Source: a virus. From it: 28,973 nt of DNA. Location of the stretch: positions 1-28,973 of IMG/VR virus record IMGVR_UViG_3300046507_000605. One strand, given 5' to 3'. The notes beneath the pieces were generated by a model, which searched no databases, was not told the DNA's origin, and worked only from the letters and a program-made list of their open reading frames with translations. Positions 22,763-28,942 of this stretch are shown here, one piece after another (within the stretch, counting starts at the first letter, position 1; every line of letters starts with the position of its first letter). The position numbers were made by a program, and so were the translations under genes.

Positions 22763-22801
22763 TACGAAAAGAAAAACGGCCTAGCTGAATGCTAGGCCGT
22801 T
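22763..22801 (-). terminator. Terminator of the agr-like operon
   Basis: On the minus strand AACGGCCTAGC pairs with GCTAGGCCGTT (11 bp, loop ATTCA), followed by TTTTTCTTTTCG. The stop codon of the LytTR gene is within the stem. Confidence 0.88.
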
Positions 22802-23533
22802 AACTATTTGGGAAACCATGCTGCGTTTGGTTCCTGGAATATCAACTGATGTTTCATCTTTAAAGCGGATGAAAGAAGCACCTGCCTGACTTTCCGTTAC
22901 ATCATCGACATAATCAATATTGACTAAAAGGCCACTATCGATCTTGACGAAGGTTGGGAACATTTCCGAACAAGTTTCCATCTTCAGGATAACTGTGAAT
23001 ATCCCTTTTGCTGTATGGAACCTCGGCACTTTGTAGTTGCTTTTAACTTCAAATGTGTCTATGTAACAAAGATCAGCAAGGGAGAACGTTCCGAAATCAT
23101 CTGTCACCTCATACCCATTCTCGTCCACAATCATCCCAACAAACTCTACGTCCAGCGGTATCTCCCGCAGCTCCTGGGTCATTGCAAGGTCGATCCGTCC
23201 TTTAGGAACCTGAATCTCTTTGGCTCCGTCGAACATGGCGATTGCTACCCCCGAGAATCTTTTCTGAGAAATATCCTTCACCTGTCTAGGATTAACCAGA
23301 TACTTCGTATCGACCGGAATGAAATTGTAACCTGAGAACAAATGCTTACAGGTTTCAAGTGTTAGCGGAACAGAATATTCATCGCCAGAGATAAGGTGGA
23401 AACCTGGTACGCAGTAATTCTTTTTGGGCCGCCAAGTTTTAATGTACTTTACCTGACCGCCCTTGAAGACTCCAAGCTTACCAGTTTCCTTATCCTTCAC
23501 AACTTCAACACCAAGAAATGTTCTTCTTATCAT
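22781..23533 (-). CDS. Regulator with two LytTR-like domains and no receiver
   Basis: 250 residues; ATG at 23533 has AAGGTG 7 bases before it (ATG at 23539 is too close). Two copies of a LytTR-like DNA-binding domain are seen, about residues 25-120 and 135-245. They share YIxTxxxKxNYxVPxFH, then a glycine, a TxETC / METC segment, and VNxxxVxD, the LytTR signature for the strand before the recognition part. There is no CheY-like receiver, unlike AgrA. Last gene of the agr-like operon, 11 bases after the AgrD-like gene. It probably binds DNA as a built-in dimer and controls phage genes in response to the peptide (inference). Confidence 0.8.
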   Translation of the reverse strand: MIRRTFLGVEVVKDKETGKLGVFKGGQVKYIKTWRPKKNYCVPGFHLISGDEYSVPLTLETCKHLFSGYNFIPVDTKYLVNPRQVKDISQKRFSGVAIAMFDGAKEIQVPKGRIDLAMTQELREIPLDVEFVGMIVDENGYEVTDDFGTFSLADLCYIDTFEVKSNYKVPRFHTAKGIFTVILKMETCSEMFPTFVKIDSGLLVNIDYVDDVTESQAGASFIRFKDETSVDIPGTKRSMVSQIVNGLAFS

Positions 23534-23544
23534 AAGCATGCACC

Positions 23545-23667
23545 TTACTTACGTTTCAGTTCTTGGGGCAGCTTTTGAGCGCCAACAACTGTCTTGTTGA
23601 TAGTTGCAAAACCATCAGCGCTTTTCTCCAGTCCTTTAGAGAACTGTTTAGCTAGTACTTTTTTCAT
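23545..23667 (-). CDS. agrD: AgrD-like signal peptide precursor, 40 residues
   Basis: A short gene starting inside the last codons of agrB (20-base overlap), with GGGGGTG before ATG. The product has the AgrD layout: an amphipathic basic helix (MKKVLAKQFSKGLEKSADG), a central segment (FATINKTVVGAQ), and the conserved tail KLPQELKRK, which corresponds to the xPxEL recognition tail cut by AgrB. There is no cysteine, so the usual thiolactone cannot form. A lactone through Ser or Thr, or a linear peptide, would be needed. Position between agrB and the regulator supports the call. Confidence 0.75.
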   Translation of the reverse strand: MKKVLAKQFSKGLEKSADGFATINKTVVGAQKLPQELKRK

Positions 23668-24205
23668 ACTTGTTCACCCCCTTCCATATTGGGACTATGA
23701 GAACACCCTGAACTAAAAAGGTAAGGGTGAGCACATCGGATTGGATAAAGATATTTGAAAAGACTAGCATCAGTGATATTACTTTCATAGCTGGATAATA
23801 TTTCGGGTTCATATTCGTCGTCTCCTCATCCATGTTTGGTGAGAATCTCAGGAAAATTAGACCCGTTATGATTGTCAATAATAGCACATATGTTCGCATT
23901 ATTTCAATATGTGGAATAGGTGCTATTAATGCTGCAGTCACGAACGAACAAAGTGTTAATGATTTGAAATGAAAACCTCCGGAGAAGAAACGAATGACAC
24001 AGAATGCAGTGAACGATACGATTGTCATTCCAAGTGAGTTAGTAAGCAAACCAGTAATGACAACAAGAACAGCTGTTAAAAAGAAATTTAGATAAACCCC
24101 TAACGCATACGCCATTACATTCACACTTGCAGTAATCCCCTCGGGATCTACAGCTTTTATTTTGTGAGCAATTGATCGGGATAGTGTCTCAATCAAATTG
24201 ACCAT
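23648..24205 (-). CDS. agrB: AgrB-type membrane peptidase
   Basis: 185 residues, with five or six membrane segments. The catalytic motif of AgrB is present: RFFSGGFHFKSLTLC, with His and Cys separated by six residues as in staphylococcal AgrB (H77, C84). It should cut and cyclise the AgrD-like peptide and help export it. The start is uncertain: ATG at 24205 touches the GAAAGG site, while TTG at 24196 has the better spacing. Overlaps the receptor gene before and the agrD gene after. Confidence 0.9.
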   Translation of the reverse strand: MVNLIETLSRSIAHKIKAVDPEGITASVNVMAYALGVYLNFFLTAVLVVITGLLTNSLGMTIVSFTAFCVIRFFSGGFHFKSLTLCSFVTAALIAPIPHIEIMRTYVLLLTIITGLIFLRFSPNMDEETTNMNPKYYPAMKVISLMLVFSNIFIQSDVLTLTFLVQGVLIVPIWKGVNKYEKSTS

Positions 24206-24860
24206 CCTTTCTGTTTGAGTAGTAATATAAGAAGCCGAATGCAATTAGTGCAAAGGGAAGGATACAGAGTGTGACAAGATGTACTATGGTGATCAGAGTC
24301 ATTGAGATAACAACAAGAACTGCAACAGTTGCTATCAGAATGTTTCTGTTTACCGGCGATAAAATGTCATCTTTAATATTGAAATCATGTGGAGGTTCAA
24401 TGATAAAGGAGAAACCTCTTCCGAATTTGTAAAATATAAAACCAATTATGTAGGATGCCGAAATGCTTGTGATCTGAATGAGACTAACTCCATATCCTTC
24501 CGCCTGGCTTATCACGTTGCTGTGAATGATTCCAGTTTGTGTCATAAACAGGATTATCAGAAGCTGCAAGGGAATATAAGCTCCGATCGCGGTAACTGTC
24601 ATGAATAAGGACCAATGCAGTTTATATTCGAATCCATATCTTAAAAACAAACTGAAGATAATCACTTGTACTGGTAAGTCAATCAGAGGAACGTCCAGTA
24701 CAATCCGAAATAAATAAGACACGATTGCGACTGTCACGCACCCAAGTACTATTGTTCGATGGTGTTTTAACATCGGTTGTCTATGTAGCTTTAACCCTAG
24801 AACAAAAACTGCTAAAGCATCAAAAACACTTAGAACAATGTACAAAACATCACTGATCAT
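24189..24860 (-). CDS. AgrC-like membrane receptor without kinase domain
   Basis: About 223 residues, nearly all membrane: seven hydrophobic segments (roughly residues 3-22, 35-57, 61-77, 82-107, 125-145, 173-195, 198-216). This matches the 6-7-TM sensor half of AgrC, but the protein stops after the last segment (YYYSNRKDGQFD). No DHp or ATPase domain is present here or in the next genes. It overlaps agrB in the same operon, so it likely senses the peptide. How it signals without a kinase is open: direct contact with the tandem LytTR protein or with a host kinase. ATG 24875 is an alternative start. Confidence 0.65.
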   Translation of the reverse strand: MISDVLYIVLSVFDALAVFVLGLKLHRQPMLKHHRTIVLGCVTVAIVSYLFRIVLDVPLIDLPVQVIIFSLFLRYGFEYKLHWSLFMTVTAIGAYIPLQLLIILFMTQTGIIHSNVISQAEGYGVSLIQITSISASYIIGFIFYKFGRGFSFIIEPPHDFNIKDDILSPVNRNILIATVAVLVVISMTLITIVHLVTLCILPFALIAFGFLYYYSNRKDGQFD

Positions 24861-25056
24861 CTCGGTCACCGTCATCCTTCTTCAGGCGATTTTCGCCGTA
24901 TTGTATCACGCTTGATTTCAAAAGAAGTAGTGCCCCACCTGAAGCTTCTCGATATGTGAGTTTGTTCATTTTACACAACCTTGATATTTGCCGTCGTGAT
25001 ACCTTAAGATGATCAGCAGCTTCTCCAGCAGTCATTACCTCATCCAAAGGATTCAA
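24850..25056 (-). CDS. Excisionase-type small HTH protein, first gene of the agr-like operon
   Basis: About 68 residues. TTG at 25056 is chosen, since AAGGAG lies 9 bases before it and the ATG at 25065 directly abuts the site. The domain is an HTH_17/MerR-like winged helix: MTAGEAADHLKVSRRQISRL, then KMNKLTYREASGGALLLLKS. The tail is acidic (KKDDGDRDDQ). It overlaps the receptor gene by 11 bases. It could bind the operators in its own promoter or act as an excision factor linked to the peptide signal (inference). Confidence 0.75.
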   Translation of the reverse strand: MNPLDEVMTAGEAADHLKVSRRQISRLCKMNKLTYREASGGALLLLKSSVIQYGENRLKKDDGDRDDQ

Positions 25057-25119
25057 TATAATCATCTCCTTTTTCCTGTATTTTCAGAACCTATGGGTTC
25101 CGATTTAGGTAAACAATAT

Positions 25120-25137
25120 GAGTCTCGTTCGAGACTC
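25120..25137. promoter_or_regulatory. Operator 1 of the agr-like operon
   Basis: GAGTCTCG-TT-CGAGACTC, arms of 8 bp. It lies downstream of the -10 of the leftward promoter and shares AGTCTC-N4-GAGACT with operator 2. Centres are 34 bp apart. Confidence 0.7.
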
Positions 25138-25146
25138 TGTAGTTAG

Positions 25147-25176
25147 ATAATACCAGTCTCAAATGAGACTTGTCAA
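25147..25176 (-). promoter_or_regulatory. Promoter of the agr-like operon with operator 2 in the spacer
   Basis: Minus-strand TTGACA, 18 bases, TATTAT, a strong sigma-A promoter. The spacer contains AGTCTC-ATTT-GAGACT on this strand (25155-25170). A repressor there would block polymerase directly. The regulator is unknown; candidates are the HTH proteins of this window or the LytTR protein. Confidence 0.8.
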
Positions 25177-26309: not shown

Positions 26310-28685
26310 TTACCTTACTGGCGCAGGGAGCTTAGTGATAAACCGTGCGTATCCATCTTTGTTCTTAATCAGATTCAAGCTGTGATGCCGTGGAAGCTTA
26401 AGTAGATCCTCCTCTGTATATGGATACAGTTCGCTGCTCAGCTCCTTATAATTGTTCTTATCGCAGCCACTAATAAGCATATAAGAGGCATTGGCTGATC
26501 GCAACTCGTCGCGGATATGCCGGATCTGGTTGAGATAGTGGGCGCTTATGATCGGCTTTGCTCCGAACTTAGCCAATCGGCTGATCTTTTCTGTGAGAAG
26601 CTTTTCTGTATTCTCGACTTGATACAACTCATCGATAATGACATTTAGTTTGGTTAGATCGTTCCGATCTGGTATCTGTTGCCCACGTATCTGGAGTGCC
26701 AGCCAAATCTTAGCTAGCCAGTAAGTCGTATAGATGTCGCGTTCTCCATCTGTTTGGAACATGGTCTCAGGCATTTTCAAGCATATCAATTGATTCTTCT
26801 GGATCTCTTGGACCAGATCGATGTTCCCAGCAGTTGATTTCTTAAGCATCTGTTCCATCCAAGTGTTCGCTTTGAGTTTGTTCAGACGATCAATTACACC
26901 AGTGATAAGGTGATCTTTAGTACCGCATAACACCGATTCAACTATCGTGTCCTTCCCAACCTTCGTTTTCACATCCTTGTATTCATCAAGCTCCTCAAGA
27001 TTATTCATGTACTCTTCTAAGTTTTCAAAATGCACTTTTGGTACTTTCATAAGAAAAGAATGTCTGGCTTGATGGTTCTGCAGCACACTGAATACATCCT
27101 TGATGCTCCCTCCTGTTATGAACACGATGTTCGCTGCACTTGTTAAGTATCGTTCCATCTTAGCTGACAGTCGTGTATCGTCAGCATTAATTGAATTGAT
27201 CAAGGCCATCAGCTGCGTGGTCTGCTTCTTCGCATTATCGTATTGGTAAAAAGGGTCTGGGGTATGAGGGACTTCATTGAATCCTAATCCTTGTATTTTC
27301 CGAGGGTCTGCACAATCAATGACCAATCTTTTATCTAAGGGGAATAGTGCTGCTACTTCAGAACTTAGCTCGCAGTTTTTAACGAAGTCAAAGATGAAGA
27401 CACTCTCACCTGCATTAATTGCGTCTCGGCTTAGGTTGCCGATTAGTGTAGATTTACCAGCACGTGTTGGTCCAATAATCGCGAGCATGAGGTTTTTATA
27501 TTCTTTATCGTTTGTAAGATACGCCTGCTGATCATGGCCGCGATATGTGCTGGTGCCAATACACATAACCCCTTGCTTCAGATCATCCGGTACTTGGGTT
27601 TCCTGTGTCTCTACCTTGTCAATGAAGTCATAGCGCTCTAACACGCCTCGACCAGGCAACTCTAGGAAGTTCTGTGCCTCCAGATCACCAACCTTATTCT
27701 TAGAAGCTGCTGGTAAATAGCGATCCGTGAATTGAAACTGCCGGCGATAAGGCTTGTAGAGCAGCCTGTTGTCTTCTGACACTGTGTCAAAGGATTGTGC
27801 TAGGCTGCGTGCTGCATTCCTCTCCCGAAGCTTATCTTCGCACTCTGCCATGACTAAAATCTGAGTATCGATCACAGTGCTTGAGGCTTTCTTGGTTGTG
27901 CTCTCGCTTACCTTACGGCCTCCGTTCAATCGGTCGAGTAATGTGTCCATATAGTCGGCGCCCGCTCCTGAGCCCTTACGATCGCCTCCTAGCGATTCAG
28001 CTATCTCCTTGAATACTGCATTCCCCGCAGCGATCAGGTAGCGGAATAGATACCAAGTTCCCATCTTATTGCGGTCTACTGGTAACCTGCGGTTGACTTT
28101 GTCAATTGTGGCCTTGTAGAGATGCCGCCAGCTGAGTTGTGAGGTAGGTATGAAGTTATACATTATGGCGAGCTTATCGCCTTCCTCAAGCAGTTCTACT
28201 GCGTTCAGGTTACTTGTGAGCAAGTCATTGTTACGGCGGTCTGTAGCCATGCTCAGGGCGTCCTCTTTCTCATAGACCAACTCATACCGTGTGGCCTTAG
28301 TGCTGAAGCCTGGGAGCTCAGAGACCTCTTCGATTGTCACCTGCCCCCATACGTCCGACAGCTTCTCACGGAGATAAGACAGATGCTGCCGCGGAACTAT
28401 GAAAAAGAATTCAACCTTTCGTTGTTCCATGTAAATGTAATAGCCAACCTTAGCCGGCAGAGTGTAGCGGTATTTTGTGCCGAGCACGAATTCTCTGCCG
28501 AATGCTTTAATCAGTTTGTGTTCTTCGATTTTGATGTTAGAGAGTGCGGTTTTGTATAACGAGGCAATTGCTCTAGCGATCTTATAGGTGCCTTGGTTGC
28601 GGACAGCATTGTTTGGTTTGATTTTGAGGTAAACATATTCAGGGTGTGAAACCTGTAGGTATTTCGTGAACGTGATGCTTTTCAT
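26310..28685 (-). CDS. HerA/VirB4/VirD4-like P-loop ATPase
   Basis: 791 residues from ATG 28685, which overlaps the previous stop by 4 bases. The first ~390 residues have no clear motif. The ATPase domain follows: Walker A GPTRAGKST (405-413), IFDFVKN (431-437), and Walker B NVIIDELYQ (681-689), then LAKFGAKPIISAHYLNQI, as in TraG/VirD4 and VirB4 relatives. Such motors move DNA or protein in conjugation, or pump DNA. The nearest group cannot be fixed by eye. A T4SS-type motor next to phage regulation genes is unusual and suggests a phage-plasmid or mobile-element mosaic (inference). Confidence 0.8.
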   Translation of the reverse strand: MKSITFTKYLQVSHPEYVYLKIKPNNAVRNQGTYKIARAIASLYKTALSNIKIEEHKLIKAFGREFVLGTKYRYTLPAKVGYYIYMEQRKVEFFFIVPRQHLSYLREKLSDVWGQVTIEEVSELPGFSTKATRYELVYEKEDALSMATDRRNNDLLTSNLNAVELLEEGDKLAIMYNFIPTSQLSWRHLYKATIDKVNRRLPVDRNKMGTWYLFRYLIAAGNAVFKEIAESLGGDRKGSGAGADYMDTLLDRLNGGRKVSESTTKKASSTVIDTQILVMAECEDKLRERNAARSLAQSFDTVSEDNRLLYKPYRRQFQFTDRYLPAASKNKVGDLEAQNFLELPGRGVLERYDFIDKVETQETQVPDDLKQGVMCIGTSTYRGHDQQAYLTNDKEYKNLMLAIIGPTRAGKSTLIGNLSRDAINAGESVFIFDFVKNCELSSEVAALFPLDKRLVIDCADPRKIQGLGFNEVPHTPDPFYQYDNAKKQTTQLMALINSINADDTRLSAKMERYLTSAANIVFITGGSIKDVFSVLQNHQARHSFLMKVPKVHFENLEEYMNNLEELDEYKDVKTKVGKDTIVESVLCGTKDHLITGVIDRLNKLKANTWMEQMLKKSTAGNIDLVQEIQKNQLICLKMPETMFQTDGERDIYTTYWLAKIWLALQIRGQQIPDRNDLTKLNVIIDELYQVENTEKLLTEKISRLAKFGAKPIISAHYLNQIRHIRDELRSANASYMLISGCDKNNYKELSSELYPYTEEDLLKLPRHHSLNLIKNKDGYARFITKLPAPVR

Positions 28686-28942
28686 TTTGCCACACCGCCC
28701 AAGAGGTATCGTATTAAAGCAACTGATGTGAACGTCAATCCTGCCCATCGGTATCCGTTCTTTAGCCCGACTGTACCGAGGATAATGAGCGCTGCACAAC
28801 CAATAAGACCAGCCCCATAACTTAACTCGTAAAGCACAGTAGCGGCTGCCTGGAGCCAATCCAGAACGTGTGCAGCCATACTGTGTGCTACTTGATCCTT
28901 GACTGCATCTCCTATGCTGTGAGGCACTTTCTCTGCAATCAT
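28682..28942 (-). CDS. Small two-span membrane protein, possibly pilin/VirB2-like
   Basis: 86 residues. A polar N-terminal helix (HSIGDAVKDQVAHSMAAHVL) is followed by two membrane segments around residues 38-58 (YELSYGAGLIGCAALIILGT) and 66-82. The layout resembles small membrane proteins encoded just before T4SS ATPases in Gram-positive elements. The frame stays open to the window edge and the ribosome site (AAAGG) is 12 bases from the ATG, so the true start may be outside. No named family. Confidence 0.65.
   Translation of the reverse strand: MIAEKVPHSIGDAVKDQVAHSMAAHVLDWLQAAATVLYELSYGAGLIGCAALIILGTVGLKNGYRWAGLTFTSVALIRYLLGGVAK

Follow-up and report, generated by a model that had tools for sequence, protein, structure and literature searches.

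Textbooks present Agr as a two-component system that works with a thiolactone peptide. In the LytTR Regulatory Systems (LRS) of S. mutans, a membrane protein without enzymatic activity keeps a LytTR regulator inactive (PMC6193735). For the Brevibacillus phages Davies, Emery, and Abouo, the passage on these phages in Hargreaves et al. 2014 describes AgrB and a putative AgrD, together with membrane proteins as possible AgrC homologs devoid of the ATPase domain (PMC3901668). The lack of a kinase was thus already noted in 2014 for three phages of the kind described below.

We analysed the whole of one IMG/VR record (28,973 bases, termed the window; coordinates refer to that stretch, and those given with a locus number to the respective locus). 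We are moderately confident that a seven-helix membrane protein encoded there is the complete receptor in a peptide quorum-sensing operon that is mobile and self-contained, and that it controls a LytTR protein by direct contact, through hold and release. The observations behind this reading are the gene content and its conservation, the lack of kinase and receiver domains, the catalytic residues of AgrB, the co-segregation of receptor and peptide types, and natural kinase fusions.

Organization of the operon

Five minus-strand genes, which overlap or almost abut, extend from a promoter (25176-25147) to a terminator (22801-22775). Their order is HTH protein, receptor, AgrB, AgrD-like peptide, and tandem LytTR protein, and the operon thus has its own promoter and its own terminator. 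The promoter is of the sigma-A type (25147-25176, minus strand; TTGACA-18-TATTAT, 11 of 12 positions in a consensus scan) and has a TG ahead of the second hexamer. It is overlaid by two copies of the palindrome AGTCTC-N4-GAGACT, one within the spacer (25155-25170) and one immediately downstream of the -10 hexamer (25121-25136). Both are putative operators, and no further exact copy occurs in the window. The first gene (24850-25065, minus strand) codes for an HTH_17/excisionase-like DNA-binding protein of 71 aa (PF12728, E 2.9e-6, slightly over the cut-off), which is possibly the autoregulator of this twin-palindrome promoter.

The second gene is that of the kinase-less seven-helix receptor (24189-24860, minus strand, with an alternative start at 24875). 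It is followed, all on the minus strand, by the genes for the peptide-processing membrane protease AgrB (23648-24205; PF04647, E 3.4e-13), in which the catalytic His and Cys are present (GGFHFKSLTLC), and for the AgrD-like signal precursor (23545-23667; MKKVLAKQFSKGLEKSADGFATINKTVVGAQKLPQELKRK), which has 40 residues and no Cys. The last gene (22781-23539) codes for a protein of 252 aa with two stretches matching PF04397, LytTR domain 1 at 23192-23386 (E 8.8e-7) and LytTR domain 2 at 22826-23044 (E 1.6e-7), also seen in the AlphaFold2 model; it is devoid of a receiver domain. The operon is closed by an intrinsic terminator (22775-22801, minus strand) with an 11-bp stem, 7 G-C pairs, and a T-run.

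The record is classed as viral. At 26310-28859 it codes for an ATPase that weakly matches VirB4/TraC-like proteins, and at 28682-28942 for a small membrane protein.

A seven-helix membrane protein without a kinase

The receptor ORF has its stop at 24189 and may start with the ATG at 24860 (223 aa) or with that at 24875 (228 aa), the former agreeing better with the N-termini of homologs. An AlphaFold2 model, computed from a 46-sequence alignment (mean pLDDT 90.5), consists of seven helices (residues 3-30, 36-59, 63-82, 86-114, 128-151, 174-198, and 202-226), in agreement with a preliminary description of this DNA, according to which seven membrane segments are followed by a stop. A cytosolic loop with the sequence GFSFIxxPPHDF is conserved.

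The protein matches phrog_15604, which is labelled 'membrane protein' (E 1.4e-44). No Pfam family was found at E<=5, and NCBIfam returned just one chance match (E 4.2, far below the cut-off of that family). A PDB sequence profile search gave no match at E<=10, and a fold search with Foldseek against the PDB and viral models none at E<=0.001. The best Z of VIA-align (6.1 across 53 residues) is inside the range stated for unrelated helical bundles. The preliminary description had considered the protein to be half of an AgrC. This could not be supported, as hhalign comparison with two canonical Paenibacillaceae AgrC sensor groups resulted in probabilities of 23% and 57%, which are above the 1% of an AgrB control but not significant. 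The receptor probably forms a separate family, which is kinase-free more often than it is kinase-linked.

When all six frames of the record were searched with the profiles HATPase_c (PF02518) and HATPase_c_5 (PF14501), nothing matched, while 14 of 14 control genomes were positive with the former profile and 13 of 14 with the latter. The operon is thus kinase-free, as had been claimed, and so is every frame of the 29-kb record; a kinase that would be restored by correcting a frameshift was not found. The position beside agrB and agrD might still suggest a truncated or frameshifted AgrC. However, well over 100 homologs have a similar length, HATPase is absent from every frame, clear homology to AgrC sensors was not found, and the 3′ end of the receptor gene runs 17 bases into the start of agrB, so that nothing has been lost between the two genes. 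Relatives are mostly 217-242 aa long, and because this short length and the gene order recur among them, the ORF is due neither to chance nor to truncation. By the conserved length, the negative six-frame search, and the agrB overlap, we regard a damaged AgrC as ruled out for all practical purposes.

Distribution among Paenibacillus and relatives

The layout is conserved in phages, plasmids, and chromosomes of Paenibacillus and Brevibacillus. Receptor relatives occur in Harrison and Paisley, two phages of Paenibacillus larvae (about 40% identity), in the Brevibacillus phages Davies, Emery, and Abouo, on three Paenibacillus plasmids, and on 31 IMG/VR contigs and 34 genome contigs. The order receptor, AgrB, peptide, LytTR is kept in Harrison, Davies, Emery, and Abouo, in the plasmids pAP1, pY5S7-2, and pYPD9-1, and likewise at dozens of loci on IMG/VR contigs and chromosomes. 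Nearly all relatives have the order receptor, AgrB, short peptide, in most of them the LytTR gene comes next, and the cassettes are kinase-free.

Prevalence was determined with profile HMMs built for this analysis. Among 81 distinct AgrB loci from 75 Paenibacillus genomes, 74 have a kinase-less receptor, 5 have a canonical AgrC kinase, and 2 have neither; both together were found in none of the 81. The five loci with a canonical kinase go with a Cys precursor. The kinase-less receptor again predominates in the fuller set, which includes an order-level sample made up of the best-scoring AgrB matches and a hand-picked spread, so that proportions from that sample are only indicative. The kinase-less layout is the common form in Paenibacillus and relatives. 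What had been taken for an unusual wiring is therefore the majority form at the AgrB loci of sampled Paenibacillus. Most of these loci break the textbook rules of Agr in part, having a kinase-less receptor and, in many cases, a precursor without the ring Cys or Ser.

The cassette is located between an integrase and XRE/CI-like regulators in Davies, Abouo, and Emery, and adjoins an integrase/resolvase in Harrison. The record analysed here also encodes an integrase, RecT, and a DnaB-like helicase. With its VirB4/TraC-like ATPase and small membrane protein, it might be a phage-plasmid or an integrative conjugative element. The position near integrase and repressor genes suggests that the sensing of carrier density may serve to time excision, lysis, or transfer. 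The cassette may be another density switch for the decisions of temperate phages.

Evidence for a receptor role

In three loci (L213, L217, and L251), the same seven-helix domain (receptor HMM, E 1e-23 to 1e-26) is fused to HATPase_c (E about 1e-20). These fusions (L213, 659-2068, and L251, 407-1771, both in minus-strand coordinates; L217, 909-2285) are positioned upstream of AgrB. That of L217 adjoins a REC-LuxR regulator and goes with a Lys-type precursor, a LytTR protein being absent. The seven-helix domain thus serves elsewhere as a sensor, and the natural fusions support a receptor role of the kinase-less protein. The view of the preliminary description that this is the receptor of an Agr-like peptide circuit without a kinase is supported.

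Alternatively, the protein might assist in exporting or maturing the signal (as a leader protease, a chaperone, or an immunity partner of AgrB), with the LytTR protein controlled otherwise. It always adjoins agrB in the cassettes and also occurs in cassettes without LytTR, and a second membrane protease, MroQ, acts in AIP maturation in S. aureus (PMC10885120). However, the C-terminal HATPase_c kinase of three homologs is expected of a sensor, the protein is absent from the canonical AgrC loci of the genus survey, and there are copies without agrB (L053, L067, L068, and L070). We consider an accessory function unlikely.

Receptor type and peptide type co-segregate in 123 loci: 78 combine a Lys-type receptor with a Lys-type peptide and 45 a Ser-type receptor with a Ser- or Cys-type peptide, with no mismatch. 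In part, this may reflect linked descent, both having been inherited as one operon. The co-segregation speaks against a decoy or interference device, which would soak up or misread host Agr signals in order to silence them, and so does the fact that the cassette encodes its own precursor, processing enzyme, and regulator. The element is mobile and orphan receptors without agrB occur, as a decoy would have it, but we judge this explanation to be very improbable.

The orphan receptors (L053, 4950-5717; L067, 4905-5657; L068, 4977-5654; L070, 4980-5657) have neither agrB nor agrD nor LytTR nearby. Those of L067, L068, and L070 adjoin the same CorA-like gene.

Signal precursor and AgrB

The preliminary description had overlooked that the AgrD-like precursor is Cys-less and of a Lys type. 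In canonical precursors, the nucleophile is found ten residues ahead of the tail Pro (P-10), and AgrB cuts between the sixth and the fifth residue before this Pro. The canonical product is a 16-membered thiolactone ring (PMC4979651). The precursor of the record has Asn at P-10 and Lys at P-9. In the first eight relatives aligned, Lys25, Gly29, and Pro34 of the pattern K-x-x-h-G-x4-P are invariant, and about 90 distinct peptides are Lys-type precursors with the Lys one residue closer to the inferred cut. Later classes, with 65 and 23 distinct cores, were defined by these residues, so that invariance there is by construction; at seven loci outside the pattern (L017, L024, L029, L038, L052, L231, and L235) the Lys was seen on inspection. 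Lys-type precursors have two classes of tail, G-type and HSP-type (23545-23667 of the record; peptides of L009-L075 and L188-L259). An HSP-type example is SIMKPAF/HSPEVPKEL, with K at the same place and a classical tail, to be compared with the Cys-type ACPGFG/HSPEVPEEL of L223.

In the Cys/Ser types as well as in the Lys-Gly type, P-6 is mostly Ile, Val, or Phe, a pattern which supports the same cut register for both. With this register, the Lys at P-9 would come to lie three positions ahead of the newly formed C-terminal end. Ring closure via the side-chain nitrogen of this Lys would again give 16 atoms (7 contributed by Lys and 3x3 by the other residues), which is the size of known AIPs such as that of S. 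aureus. The catalytic signature of AgrB (His, Cys) is kept in 112 of 112 AgrB rows. The signal may thus be a Lys side-chain lactam, a specific hypothesis that the sequences suggest; a linear peptide freed by AgrB hydrolysis is a possible alternative. A Ser/Thr lactone was rejected for Lys-type peptides, as they have no Ser/Thr/Cys conserved at P-10. If true, the Lys lactam would mean a type of chemistry that is new for AgrB, and it would be expected to exceed a thiolactone in stability.

The Lys type involves 4 changes on a 120-row receptor tree as well as on the AgrB tree, but the main Lys groups come together on a tree of 69 rows (support 91), so that this type may have arisen once or several times. 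Tentatively, and with more doubt than confidence, we propose a new signalling branch in which a Lys macrolactam (K-x-x-h) made by AgrB would be sensed by a kinase-free seven-helix receptor that directly controls LytTR, with DNA binding as output here and c-di-GMP enzymes elsewhere.

AgrB also occurs with a Cys-type precursor (CWWIAHEPEMPEEVKK) in L176 (2991-3782, minus-strand coordinates), L237, and L240. In L176, AgrB and the precursor are followed by a NusG-like gene (199 aa) and by biosynthetic genes.

The LytTR partner

Most LytTR partners have either a single domain (109-160 aa) or two of them (228-252 aa) and consist of LytTR domains only; those with a single domain are too short for a receiver domain. 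In the protein of the record, the Pfam scan, the LytTR profile, and structure matches revealed LytTR domains and no receiver domain. Its AlphaFold2 model has a pLDDT of 86, and the top PDB matches are LytTR domains, AgrA among them. As the receiver domain is lacking, there is no receiver aspartate for phosphorylation, which makes a phosphorelay unlikely. This bears on the possibility that the receptor signals to a host histidine kinase, resulting in a split two-component system. Kinase-less sensor domains can in principle pair with soluble kinases, and some relatives are kinase-fused. However, the cassette has no phosphoacceptor, and no kinase gene is found beside it, the exceptions being a few loci of the order-level sample, which have AgrC-like genes that are separate from the receptor. 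We consider a host kinase quite improbable. Three options had been offered in the preliminary description: a non-kinase receptor with direct LytTR contact, a decoy, and a host kinase. Direct contact is the best of these, while the other two do not go well with a self-contained cassette and a LytTR protein without a receiver domain.

A candidate for such a contact is found in the clade of the record, where the GFSFIxxPPHDF loop of the receptor co-occurs with the motif PKxNYxVP of LytTR (42 of 45 motif-bearing LytTR proteins have a PPH receptor). This suggests a contact, but the pairing could also be due to shared descent. Among the loci surveyed, a natural receptor-LytTR fusion was not found, which speaks against direct control. 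In six loci, LytTR-family proteins of 602-632 aa are encoded downstream of a kinase-less receptor, AgrB, and a mostly Asn-type precursor (TNSxxx/HRPETPEEL). The one that was domain-scanned, in L224 (3287-5095), is a LytTR-GGDEF-EAL protein, which is a possible link from peptide to c-di-GMP; similar genes are present in L241, L243, L255, L260, and L263. These proteins point to the LytTR domain as the partner module common to these receptors. With direct control of LytTR, one receptor module would be joined variously to a kinase, a transcription factor, and c-di-GMP enzymes.

Besides the missing fusion and a gene order unlike that of the LRS, two observations speak against direct control. At 41 of 184 kinase-less loci, a LytTR gene is missing within 900 bp; either their partner can be encoded at a distance, or their receptor has a different output. 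Direct repeats of the LytTR kind are not significantly enriched in 144 regions upstream of the operons, with a slight excess at a spacing of 21 bp; an ATGGA[T/A]TTG pair occurs in one subgroup. Footprinting of two close groups revealed conserved promoters and no decisive repeat.

A widespread chromosomal Ser-type group (ASYVYVYQGDTPEELLK; L083, L127, L132, and L136-L146) has receptor, AgrB, and precursor, and a neighbouring LytTR gene was not detected. The precursor is fused in frame with LytTR in L024 (1872-2708) and with AgrB in L038 (994-1611). The phage LytTR protein is labelled 'peptidase' in phrog_15081 and in the entries of Harrison, Davies, and Abouo, which is probably a wrong annotation.

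Proposed mechanism

We propose that AgrB processes the Cys-less AgrD-like precursor to a short signal, which it exports. The level of this signal would rise with carrier density, and the signal would bind to the seven-helix receptor. Having no enzyme domain, the receptor would hold the LytTR protein at the membrane by direct contact; binding of the peptide would alter this contact and free the LytTR protein to bind direct repeats in DNA. The outcome would be control of lysogeny or mobility of the element. By analogy, the mechanism most likely resembles that of the LRS, the nearest precedent. Direct action of the receptor on LytTR would make this a minimal peptide quorum circuit without a phosphorelay. 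The LRS, the signals of which were unknown in a 2018 study (PMC6193735), would then gain a defined signal.

Comparison with described systems

The operon shares with staphylococcal-type Agr an AgrB-family protease with His and Cys, a short precursor with a C-terminal P-x-E-L tail, a polytopic receptor, and LytTR output. It differs in having neither an AgrC kinase nor an AgrA-type receiver domain, in gene order, and in a precursor without the ring Cys or Ser, the Lys being one residue nearer to the inferred cut. Homology of the receptor to AgrC is not established (hhalign 23% and 57%).

Canonical AgrBDCA loci of Paenibacillaceae (L165-L169 and L205-L212) belong to the same bacterial family and have a related AgrB. 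In contrast to the operon described here, their AgrC kinases measure about 430-455 aa, their precursors carry Cys at P-10, and the kinase-less receptor is absent, and in L165, L166, and L168 AgrA has a receiver domain. The AgrC of L165 (3321-4747, minus-strand coordinates) is seemingly split into two ORFs and is intact in the close relative L166.

The phages Davies, Emery, and Abouo belong to the same family as the cassette of the record, and the passage on them in PMC3901668 does not mention a LytTR partner, a Lys-type precursor, or prevalence. A search of a limited collection of literature gave no earlier account of these three features or of the receptor-kinase fusions. In phiCDHM1, unlike in our cassette, AgrC was recognised by its ATPase domain, as stated in the part of PMC3901668 that deals with it.

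With the LRS of S. mutans (HdrRM and BrsRM; PMC6193735), the operon shares a receiver-less LytTR regulator and a non-enzymatic polytopic membrane protein within one operon. There, the regulator precedes the membrane protein, and 9-bp direct repeats about 12 bp apart are found upstream of the operon -35; here, the membrane protein gene is first and LytTR last, and the 144 upstream regions show the slight excess at 21 bp. The membrane protein differs in having no DUF3021/DUF2154 homology (no Pfam family at E<=5), there are often two LytTR domains per chain, and the operon adds a peptide made by AgrB/AgrD.
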